IMG/VR virus record: IMGVR_UViG_3300030098_002514 | Coordinates: 3,990-28,605 of that record | From: a virus | DNA: 24,616 nucleotides | Reading direction: 5' to 3' (one strand) | Shown: positions 2,954 through 10,651 of the stretch, one piece after another | How the letters are laid out: the number at the start of each line of letters is the position of its first letter | Numbering within the stretch: the first letter of the stretch is position 1 | Made by a program: the position numbers and the translations under genes | The notes under the pieces: model-generated | What the model was told of the DNA's origin: nothing | Database searches by the model: none | What the model saw: only the letters and a program-made list of their open reading frames with translations

Positions 2954-3227
2954 AGAGTACTCAGAGTTTATCGATGCTGAGCAACATATTTATAGGGATA
3001 ATAATGTTTTACATGCTGAAGCTTTAAAAGAATTAGCTGATCTTGTTTATGTTTGCTATCAATACGCTGCAAATATGGAGTGGGATTTAGATGAAGCTTG
3101 TCGTCGTGTGCATGAAAGCAACATGTCAAAGCTAGGAGATAACGGACAACCAGAACGAAGAGAAGACGGAAAGATATTAAAAGGTAAAAACTATCACCCA
3201 CCAACACTTACCGATTTAGTTAAATAA
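2850..3227 (+). CDS. MazG-like / PRA-PH-like NTP pyrophosphohydrolase
   Basis: This 125-residue all-alpha protein resembles the MazG/HisE-type nucleotide pyrophosphohydrolases common in marine cyanophages. The metal-binding pattern is EEYSE (35-39) followed by ELAD (61-64), matching the EExxE...ExxD arrangement of the superfamily. The C-terminal segment VHESNMSKLG, then DGKILKGKNYHPP, is typical of phage members with a single compact domain. Substrates could be non-canonical NTPs, dNTPs or an alarmone-like nucleotide; the sequence does not decide. Its start lies inside the DUF3310 gene, and its stop overlaps the next start as TAATG at 3225-3229, implying coupled translation with the ribonucleotide reductase. 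Confidence 0.83.
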   Translation: MKSNLEQAKEFREAYQVPNSRNLRQRNMQKRLIDEEYSEFIDAEQHIYRDNNVLHAEALKELADLVYVCYQYAANMEWDLDEACRRVHESNMSKLGDNGQPERREDGKILKGKNYHPPTLTDLVK

Positions 3228-4597
3228 TGAGCAATTTTATATCTCGTACAGGAAGAGTTCAAAGCTGGATTGATGATCCTGAATCACGTCTTCCAGTGTC
3301 ATGCACAGTCTTTGTTGTAGAAGACTCAATGGAGGGACCTAATGGAATTGAAGCAAGTTGGAGATTCGTTTCACACGCTTTGCGATACGGAGCCGGAGTC
3401 GCTGTACATCTTTCTAAACTGCGTCCAAAGGGAACAGAAAATGGAAAAGGTCTTACAGCGAGCGGACCTGTCTCGTTCGGAAAAATTTACAGTACATTAA
3501 ATGAAATTATTCGCCGTGGAGGGCACTACAAAAACGGTGCTTGTGTCCTTCATCTTGATATTACACATCCCGATATTATGGATTTCGTTACGACCAATCG
3601 TAGTGAACTTCCTTGGGTTAAACGCTGCGTCAACCTTGATAGAAACAGCTGGCAAGAAGCAACTGAAGAAATTAAATCCGCCATCCTCTACGGAATTAAA
3701 AGTGGAGACATTTGGCTTAACAAAATAAAACACGATCAAAATGGAAAACGTATCAGAGGAAATGTTTGTCTCGAAGTATATCTGCCCTCACGAGGCACAT
3801 GCCTCCTCCAGCACGTCAATCTTGGTGCCTGTAAAATCGGAGACTTGTGCGATGCTTTCTCTGAAGGTATGCGGAATTTGTGCGAACTTCATGGCAGAAC
3901 AGGCGTTAATGTGTCGGGAGAATACCTCTCACCCGAAACGGATCGTCAAGTTGGGCTCGGGGTTCTTGGATTAGCAAACTTTTTAAAACAAGAAAACATT
4001 ACCTATCAACAATTTGGTGATGCATTAGAAGCAGTTATGGATGGCATCCCTGGACTGGGTAAAGCTGGTCTAGTTGCTGGTGAATTTTATAAAGCAATAA
4101 ATAGAGCTGCAGACATGGCTCGTTTACATGATATGGATAGAGCATTTGCAATAGCTCCTACTGCATCATGTTCATATAAAAGTAAAGATAGAGATGGACA
4201 TACATGTGCTCCAGAAATTGCTCCGCCTATTGCACGTGCAGTAGATAGAGATAGCGGAACTTTTGGTGTACAACATTACGATTATGGTGATGTAGAAATT
4301 GCAAGCGAAGTAGGTTGGGATGCTTATAAAAAAGTAGCCGACAATTTAGTTGCAATGTTTAGACACACAGGGCTTCTTCATGGATACAGCTTTAACTCTT
4401 GGAGTGACGTTGTAACCTACGACAATGCGTTCGTGGAAGAGTGGCTGGATAGCCCCCAAACTTCTCTTTATTATTCTTTGCAAGTAATGGGAGACGTTCA
4501 GGATAAATCAAGTGCATATGCAGCATTAGATGAGAATGAAGTTGAAGATTACTTAGCGGGAATACTCGAACCCGTTACATGCGATTGTCAAGAATGA
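3227..4597 (+). CDS. nrdA: Ribonucleotide reductase, class I alpha subunit (minimal cyanopodovirus type)
   Basis: This subunit reduces ribonucleotides to deoxyribonucleotides. The protein is 456 residues, much shorter than bacterial NrdA (about 760), and lacks the N-terminal ATP-cone. C26 (PVSCTVF) and C192 (GTCLLQHVNLG) fit the active-site redox pair. NVCLE at 179-183 supplies N179, the thiyl C181 and E183. The pair Y415-Y416 in SLYYS matches the radical-transfer Tyr diad of class I enzymes, and the C-terminal CDC (452-454) may be the regenerating cysteine pair. From memory, the related P-SSP7 enzyme was first called class II and later reassigned to class I. The Tyr diad and the adjacent beta-subunit gene support class I here. 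ATGA at 4594-4597 couples it to nrdB. Confidence 0.92.
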   Translation: MSNFISRTGRVQSWIDDPESRLPVSCTVFVVEDSMEGPNGIEASWRFVSHALRYGAGVAVHLSKLRPKGTENGKGLTASGPVSFGKIYSTLNEIIRRGGHYKNGACVLHLDITHPDIMDFVTTNRSELPWVKRCVNLDRNSWQEATEEIKSAILYGIKSGDIWLNKIKHDQNGKRIRGNVCLEVYLPSRGTCLLQHVNLGACKIGDLCDAFSEGMRNLCELHGRTGVNVSGEYLSPETDRQVGLGVLGLANFLKQENITYQQFGDALEAVMDGIPGLGKAGLVAGEFYKAINRAADMARLHDMDRAFAIAPTASCSYKSKDRDGHTCAPEIAPPIARAVDRDSGTFGVQHYDYGDVEIASEVGWDAYKKVADNLVAMFRHTGLLHGYSFNSWSDVVTYDNAFVEEWLDSPQTSLYYSLQVMGDVQDKSSAYAALDENEVEDYLAGILEPVTCDCQE

Positions 4598-5313
4598 AAA
4601 ACCCATATGAAAAATTACTATCTCGAAAGAGAAAATGGACACCTGTCCAAACAACAGGAGGGACACTTAAAGAGGGAGCTGAAGAAACCATCTACCGTGC
4701 TCTGGCTATACGTCACATGGAGTTACCAGTTGGGAATTTTATCTCCGACGCTCTTGAGAAAGATGTACCTGCTGATGCACGCAAGCTCTTGGAGTCCAAT
4801 GTTAAGGATGAAATAAACCATGACATTGCTCTAGGGTATGCGGTCAATGCATTGGGAGTTGATGAACAAGCAGAGGCAGAGGCAATACGTCTCCGCACTG
4901 CTTGGGAAGAACACCCCGATCACACAATCACAAAAGCCTTGGTAGCTGAACGTGCAATATTCTTTGTTTTACTCCCTTTCTTTAGGTTTTGTGGTGATGC
5001 TGGTCTTAGAACGATATCAGCTGATATTTCCAGAGATGAGCAAATCCATGTTGCCACTAATAGTCTCGTATGTACTCATATGGGTCTTAGCAGTAGTCAA
5101 TCTTTGGATAAACTTAGGAAAGCCACAATTAATTGGGTACTACAACCCTTAAAAGTAAACACTAACGATAAATATTTGGACAAAAAATTTTGGTTGGATG
5201 CTAGTGATCGCTTGATGTACGAAGGCAAAGCCCCAGAATTTAATGAGACTAAGCGAGCTAGAATGCCCGCCTTTTTTGAACATGCAAACACCAATCTCCC
5301 TCAATACTCTTAA
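4594..5313 (+). CDS. nrdB: Ribonucleotide reductase, class I beta subunit (ferritin-like)
   Basis: This 239-residue protein is the radical-generating partner of the preceding subunit. The frame extends a little further upstream, but ATG 4594 in the ATGA overlap is the clear coupled start. Ferritin-like ligand positions visible are E43 (HMELPV, tentative), E73 and H76 (DEINH), E119 (VAERAIFF), and E149 and H152 (RDEQIH). By spacing from E73 and H76 (compare E115, H118 and Y122 in E. coli NrdB), the radical-tyrosine position is L80. A stable tyrosyl radical there is therefore not possible, and a Mn/Fe-type or other cofactor is implied. The C-terminus ends in PQYS, so a Tyr is available for radical transfer to the alpha subunit. 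It is divergent from bacterial NrdB and easy to miss in annotation. Confidence 0.88.
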   Translation: MKNPYEKLLSRKRKWTPVQTTGGTLKEGAEETIYRALAIRHMELPVGNFISDALEKDVPADARKLLESNVKDEINHDIALGYAVNALGVDEQAEAEAIRLRTAWEEHPDHTITKALVAERAIFFVLLPFFRFCGDAGLRTISADISRDEQIHVATNSLVCTHMGLSSSQSLDKLRKATINWVLQPLKVNTNDKYLDKKFWLDASDRLMYEGKAPEFNETKRARMPAFFEHANTNLPQYS

Positions 5314-9593: not shown

Positions 9594-10103
9594 ATTTTTA
9601 ACAGTTTAACAAAATATATAAAAGAGACTGTTGACTCTGTTAAGTATATCTTACAGGGTCTTTCAGTTACCTTTGACCATATGGGTAGACGGCCAATAAC
9701 AGTTCAATATCCTTATGAAAAACTAATACCATCTACTCAATACAGAGGAAGAATTCATTACGAATTGGATAAATGTATTGCATGTGAAGTTTGCGTAAGA
9801 GTATGTCCTATAAATTTACCAGTTGTCGATTGGGTAATGAATAAGGAAACTAAAAAGAAAGAACTTCGAAATTATTCTATTGACTTTGGTGCTTGTATAT
9901 TTTGCGGAAATTGTGTGGAATATTGTCCAACTAATTGTCTTTCAATGACCGAAGAATATGAACTGGCTGCATTTGATAGGCATAGCTTAAATTACGACAA
10001 TGTTGCATTAGGTCGTCTACCTACAAACGTTACACTTGATCCTAGTGTGAAAGCATTAAGAGAACTTGCTTACCTTCCTAAAGGTGAAATGGATCCACAT
10101 TAA
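9594..10103 (+). CDS. ndhI: NDH-1 subunit I (NdhI), with N-terminal helix upstream of the first ATG
   Basis: This protein carries two 4Fe-4S ferredoxin-type motifs, [12 protein letters not shown] and [12 protein letters not shown], and the NdhI stretches [20 protein letters not shown] and [20 protein letters not shown]. NdhI belongs to the peripheral arm of cyanobacterial NDH-1, which carries cyclic electron flow around photosystem I and respiration. The first ATG is at 9681 (140 residues), but the same frame upstream encodes [20 protein letters not shown] then GLSVTFDH, matching the amphipathic NdhI N-terminal helix. From stop TAG 9582 to ATG 9681 there is no ATG, GTG, TTG or CTG. ATT 9594 best fits the family length, and TAGG at 9582-9585 could be its ribosome site. 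The product stops at EMDPH and lacks the roughly 40-50-residue tail I recall in host NdhI. Confidence 0.9.
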
Positions 10104-10285: not shown

Positions 10286-10651
10286 ATGAAATTAATTGCT
10301 CTGTCTACCCTAGCGGCTGTTGCTGCTACCTCTGCAATCCCGGCGAGAGCTGGGTTTTATGTCAACGTAGAGACTAATGGATCAAGTGTTGGAAGTGATT
10401 TCCAATCAAGAACTACTGAAACTCATATTGGGTATGAAGGTGATATTGGACAACTAGGTTGGTACCTACAAGGTGGACCAGCATTCTTAGGTACGGATGC
10501 AGCCGATGGCACCACGGAACTTAGTGGGAAAATCGGTGGCACTGTTCAAGCTACAGAAAAGCTTGGCATCTATGGTGAACTAGCGGTTCAATCAAATGAA
10601 ACTACGGACACAGTTTACGGTTCCAAACTCGGAGCCAAATGGAGTTTCTGA
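10286..10651 (+). CDS. Secreted small beta-barrel-like outer-membrane-type protein
   Basis: This 121-residue protein starts with a clear signal peptide, MKLIALSTLAAVAATSAIPA, with an AxA cleavage site at ARA before GFYVNVET (predicted mature chain about 98 residues). The mature part is rich in alternating hydrophobic/polar beta-strand patterns and Gly turns (HIGYEGDIGQLGWYLQGGP, GKIGGTVQATEKLGIYGELA), and it ends in KWSF. A C-terminal Phe is the usual recognition signature of outer-membrane beta-barrels. It starts 2 bases after the riboswitch peptide, so it may be co-transcribed and subject to the same upstream control. Possible roles include changing the host surface or excluding other phages; none is shown here. 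I recall similar genes in marine cyanophages. Confidence 0.8.
   Translation: MKLIALSTLAAVAATSAIPARAGFYVNVETNGSSVGSDFQSRTTETHIGYEGDIGQLGWYLQGGPAFLGTDAADGTTELSGKIGGTVQATEKLGIYGELAVQSNETTDTVYGSKLGAKWSF

Follow-up and report, generated by a model that had tools for sequence, protein, structure and literature searches.

The window (the whole stretch of viral DNA analyzed, 24,616 nucleotides) encodes at positions 3227-5313 a minimal ribonucleotide reductase (RNR) of class Ø, the group also called Cyano SP and once proposed as subclass 'If', as placed by its close similarity to published members. The beta subunit retains its metal ligands and carries Leu (L80) at the position of the radical Tyr of E. 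coli (Y122), and the best explanation, which we consider probable, is an enzyme in which a metal-centered oxidant replaces the tyrosyl radical. The Tyr-less beta is already known from published work as a trait shared across this class of RNR; Harrison et al. (2019; PMC6370689), who proposed a new subclass, described both the absent Tyr and an identical ligand pattern for Prochlorococcus phage P-SSP7, and a preliminary description of this DNA was right that they had reassigned the P-SSP7 enzyme. Our survey adds firm numbers, Tyr being absent from position 80 throughout 235 distinct proteins, and the window is one more ordinary member of the class.

The window is contained in a 28,605-base viral record whose gene content (DNA polymerase, exonuclease, RNR, portal, scaffold, psbA, and capsid) resembles that of T7-like cyanophages, e.g., P-SSP7. 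Translation of the open reading frame (ORF) from the ATG at 4594 gives the 239-aa beta, and the overlap of this start with the alpha stop suggests translational coupling of the two subunits (Table 1).

Table 1. Features of the RNR gene pair in the window, with counts from the survey of distinct related proteins.
Feature	Position	Strand	Basis
RNR alpha subunit, class Ø type, 456 aa	3227..4597	+	PF02867 E 3.5e-23; 7urg_A E 6.8e-222
Alpha Y415-Y416, radical-transfer pair	4469..4474	+	220/220 and 219/219 rows with readable letter
RNR beta subunit, ferritin-like, 239 aa plus stop	4594..5313	+	phrog_6799 E 1.5e-135; AlphaFold model; R2 fold
ATGA, alpha stop/beta start overlap, 4 bases	4594..4597	+	read in sequence
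Beta W15, radical transfer	4636..4638	+	Trp in 235/235 rows
Beta E43, first ligand of the metal site (classes Ic and Id also have Glu here)	4720..4722	+	235/235 rows; corresponds to P-SSP7 E42 (Harrison et al., 2019, Table 3)
Beta E73-x-x-H76, first EXXH metal motif	4810..4821	+	235/235 rows each
Beta L80, codon CTA, E. coli Y122 position	4831..4833	+	Leu 229, Phe 6, Tyr 0 of 235
Beta E119, fourth metal ligand	4948..4950	+	235/236; Val in L225
Beta D148 (radical transfer), E149 and H152 (second EXXH)	5035..5049	+	D148 236/236, E149 236/236, H152 235/235 readable
Beta Y238, C-terminal Tyr, one residue before end	5305..5307	+	234/234 rows

Among solved structures the alpha subunit matched entry 7urg best, which we take to be the structure of the alpha subunit of Synechococcus phage S-CBP4 determined by Burnim and colleagues. 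The entry has 470 residues, the length that those authors give for S-CBP4 alpha (Burnim et al., 2022; PMC9531940). Alpha subunits of class Ø average ~412 aa, lack an ATP-cone, and carry a Tyr-Tyr pair and a C-terminal CXC or CXXC, and a short alpha without ATP-cone, with a YY pair and a C-terminal CXC, is likewise described for S-CBP4 (Burnim et al., 2022). The window's alpha (456 aa) also has no N-terminal ATP-cone, PF02867 being its only Pfam match and only 25 residues standing ahead of C26, and it has both the Y415-Y416 pair and a C-terminal CDC (C452-D-C454). In this class a ferritin-like gene of ~240 aa follows directly downstream; its product carries the E/D plus EXXH set twice, has Phe or Leu in place of the Tyr, and bears a C-terminal Tyr about one residue before its end. 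S-CBP4 has an adjacent beta of that size with Phe/Leu at the Tyr site and a Tyr just ahead of the C-terminus (Burnim et al., 2022), and the window has a 239-aa beta overlapping alpha by 4 bases, with E43, E73xxH76, E119, E149xxH152, L80, and Y238-S239. At 70% identity to S-CBP4 alpha as annotated and about 77% to S-CBP4 beta, the window's pair showed no difference of substance. The P-SSP7 enzyme shares the window's gene order, and its beta is 80% identical with no functional difference seen; the residues E42, E71, H74, E117, E147, and H150, with D70 and D146 in the second sphere, in Table 3 of Harrison et al. (2019) correspond one for one to eight residues of the window's beta. In 48 of 56 matching phage records, nearly all of them cyanophages, the homologue shared 60-90% identity with the window's beta.

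The preliminary description had read the product of 4594-5313 as an RNR beta with E73, H76, L80, E119, E149, and H152, and translation confirmed all of these, L80 lying four positions after H76. The first ligand, which it had left unnamed, is E43, a Glu where E. coli has Asp; the six ligands E43, E73, H76, E119, E149, and H152 are consistent with the dimetal center that had been supposed. Relatives of beta came from three scans of viral contigs and one of genome contigs, together with six named phage records. Ranked by closeness to the query, the best 80 of 595 confirmed relatives were taken from the first viral scan and the best 80 of 591 from each of the second and third, while the genome scan contributed all of its 16. 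The window's own record (L103) was excluded, and the resulting 262 ORF hits in 261 loci, together with the window, yielded 237 distinct beta proteins once identical ones were collapsed. Position 80 was covered by 235 of the 237 rows (L099 and L100 being without it), and since the rows share kinship, the counts given here are of sequences and not of independent events. All six Leu codons occurred at position 80 across the survey and therefore selection maintains Leu there, and the Leu/Phe state required only two changes on a FastTree tree; taken with the counts at the ligands in related proteins, those at position 80 exclude chance as the reason for the absence of Tyr. The pocket residues F123 and L127 were present in 236/236 rows each. 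Near-invariant acids also stand by the ligands in sequence, namely the second-sphere D72 (4807-4809; 235/235), D77 (4822-4824; 232/235), and D144 (5023-5025; 231/236); D72 has a counterpart in the table of Harrison et al. (2019).

Searches with beta against Pfam and NCBIfam returned no match, the Pfam R2 small-chain model included (0 families at E 0.001), and a single-sequence search of the PDB gave nothing useful. A profile search reached R2 proteins only at E 0.05-0.14, the best being the Chlamydia class Ic R2 (E 0.05-0.07). It is therefore fold, motifs, and gene order that support the assignment to R2. The AlphaFold2 model, built from a 60-row alignment, had a mean pLDDT of 90.4 and a pTM of 0.86 and places residues 60-87 in a ligand helix; pLDDT fell below 50 at residues 224-227 and 235-239, so that the C-terminal tail bearing Y238 is poorly modeled. 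All 50 of the VIA-align matches listed were R2 subunits of RNR, with Z from 20.1 down to 18.5 and rmsd ~3.0-3.5 over ~213-222 residues. The top Foldseek matches were R2 proteins as well, two with E below 0.001, and aldehyde-deformylating oxygenases appeared further down. Because several R2 subclasses fall within ~1.6 Z of one another, the fold does not pick a subclass.

Residues expected of a radical-transfer route are present in both subunits. We take W15, D148, and Y238 of beta to be the equivalents of E. coli W48, D237, and Y356, with the same radical-transfer roles. Y122, W48, and Y356/Y357 are named in the RNR literature (PMC6370689, PMC9531940, PMC12918982). The protein ended exactly one residue past Y238 in 197 of 234 rows. 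Among 221 distinct alpha rows, the cysteines C26, C181, and C192 were invariant wherever readable (181, 197, and 199 rows, respectively), as were C452 and C454 (220 readable rows each). A related alpha lay in the fetched stretch of 227 of the 261 loci and was absent from it in 34, several of these stretches starting near the beta gene. One beta of class Ø with intact ligands was found in Calothrix membranacea FACHB-236 (2995-3708). Searches with a single alpha and then with an alpha alignment found no class Ø alpha in that Calothrix genome (contigs under 3 kb being outside the collection), whereas four other records searched alongside gave matches; an assembly gap is a possible explanation. 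In Microcystis phage Mic1 (MN013189.1), alpha (74.7-76.0 kb) and beta (61.6-62.4 kb) are non-adjacent, ~12 kb apart.

The site can be compared with those of characterized subclasses. Like the class Ic (Mn/Fe) protein of Chlamydia trachomatis, the window's beta has a Glu first ligand (E43), a non-Tyr residue at the radical site (L80), and the same fold (Z 19.6 to 4d8f_D). In contrast, the Chlamydia protein is 346 aa long (the window's 239 aa, at 15% identity), its second sphere has Glu where the window has D72, and it possesses a C-terminal extension that the window lacks. Chlamydia Y222, which we take to be an electron relay of class Ic, aligns with D144 (Asp in 231 and Glu in 5 of 236 rows, the register coming from a profile alignment). 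The class Id (Mn/Mn) protein of Flavobacterium johnsoniae shares the Glu first ligand and, in Foldseek, the fold (8dq4_B, 6cwq_A), yet class Id keeps the Tyr according to the text of Harrison et al. (2019) and has a second-sphere Cys in place of the window's Asp. Since the shared Glu is offset by D144 at the place of Y222, and since NrdI was not found in the seven records searched (one of them, G000, a fragment; the control matched three of 14 genomes), membership in neither Ic nor Id is claimed. Classes Ia and Ib are defined by a radical Tyr and an Asp first ligand, whereas here L80 and E43 occupy these sites, with no Tyr in 235 rows. Class Ie combines replaced carboxylates with a NrdI partner; the window's beta has all carboxylates.

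A cofactor without tyrosyl radical is the likeliest reading of the window's beta. Metal-centered oxidants are workable in classes Ic and Id. By analogy, beta would bind two metals and react with O2 or superoxide, and the oxidizing equivalent would be stored in a high-valent metal cluster rather than on a Tyr. That cluster would take an electron from W15, assisted by D148, and the radical route would continue over Y238 of beta and the Y416/Y415 pair of alpha, producing at C181 the thiyl radical with which ribonucleotide reduction would start; C26/C192 could then be re-reduced by the CDC at the alpha C-terminus. The same picture is drawn by Burnim et al. (2022, sections 7-9). As for the metals, a Mn-containing site is somewhat favored, Mn/Fe, which the preliminary description had suggested, being a candidate at rather less than even chances and Mn/Mn a weaker one. 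The analogy with class Ic is incomplete, D144 standing in place of the Chlamydia Y222 relay, and the alpha-binding extension usual in R2 proteins is absent from the C-terminal tail. A cofactor or activation route unlike that of any characterized RNR, with a Tyr-free dimetal site and the acids D72, D77, and D144 but without Tyr relay or alpha-binding tail, is conceivable, if unlikely; it would involve a distinct metal-centered oxidant and might reflect how the R2 mechanism worked in an early form.

Iron would be compatible with the sequence, and a conventional diiron site, with its six ligands all there and F123 and L127 present in 236/236 rows, might generate a short-lived oxidant acting directly on W15 or Y238, with no stored metal or Tyr radical. 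Such a cycle, however, requires an oxidant that lasts between turnovers, and we regard this reading as improbable. To our knowledge, Mn/Fe serves as that lasting oxidant in the Tyr-less RNRs described to date, those of class Ic. Class Ic was the only known subclass without Tyr at the time of Harrison et al. (2019). A tyrosyl radical on another Tyr would most plausibly sit on Y82, two residues past L80, which lies within ligand helix 60-87 and is Tyr in 221/235 rows. However, Y82 is replaced by Phe, Leu, or Asn in the other 14 and is therefore not strictly required; on an ideal helix it would point ~180 degrees away from E73, with L80 on the ligand face. Y34 is variable (Tyr in 113/237 rows) and the remaining Tyr residues are outside the ligand helices. 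From this helix arithmetic and conservation, we infer that the metals have no further Tyr turned toward them, which leaves a radical on Y82 very improbable.

We give even less credence to the idea that beta is another ferritin-like diiron oxygenase, e.g., an aldehyde-deformylating oxygenase, merely located beside alpha. Cyanobacterial enzymes of that kind do appear in the Foldseek list at rank 18 (TM 0.59/0.62, E 6.5e-3), and beta lies away from alpha in Mic1 and has no detected alpha in Calothrix, but all 50 VIA-align matches listed were RNR R2 proteins, a related alpha lies in the stretch examined for 227/261 loci, and the residues anticipated for radical transfer in an RNR (W15, D148, and Y238) are invariant, as is the alpha Tyr pair. 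Two further readings, gene decay and a class Ie enzyme with a metal-free DOPA radical, have only the absence of the usual Tyr in their favor and can be dismissed, since class Ie replaces carboxylate ligands (Harrison et al., 2019, Table 3) that the window's beta retains, NrdI was not found in the seven records, the site offers no Tyr for conversion, and the variety of synonymous codons indicates strong selection.

The preliminary description had also proposed that such a cofactor could suit phosphate- or iron-poor ocean water, but we found no support tying the Leu to either scarcity. Cyano SP enzymes are anti-correlated with predicted iron, a pattern ascribed, as a proposal, to host distribution in a 2026 preprint (PMC12918982), and Harrison et al. 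(2019) proposed avoidance of nitric oxide. Burnim et al. (2022) assigned the class a near-basal position among oxygen-dependent RNRs, and the 2026 preprint describes it as still to be biochemically characterized; we found no later work on its biochemistry in the open-licence literature. RNRs of this class occur commonly in viruses that infect the ocean's most abundant phototrophs, and a stable beta from any of its members, the window's included, would offer a route to the identity of the cofactor.

Elsewhere in the window, the DNA polymerase (2-1767, + strand) extends over a pair of overlapping frames (2-544 and 448-1767), which points to a frameshift or a split gene; a frameshifted polA is mentioned for some members of the P-SSP7 RNR clade (Harrison et al., 2019). 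After psbA, this T7-like cyanophage carries a homologue of ndhI (NAD(P)H-quinone oxidoreductase subunit I; 9681-10103, + strand), which matched TIGR00403 with an E of 1.1e-80 yet stayed under the cut-off of that model. Full-length ndhI matches among the phage records listed were P-TIM40, P-TIM68, and unannotated single-cell viruses. T7-like structural genes flank ndhI in 9 of 80 loci among the IMG/VR matches listed, and the arrangement therefore recurs. Between ndhI and the capsid gene, the window encodes a protein of 121 aa whose start resembles a signal peptide (10286-10651, + strand), and relatives of it occur downstream of ndhI in four of the nine T7-like loci (L274, L275, L276, and L280).
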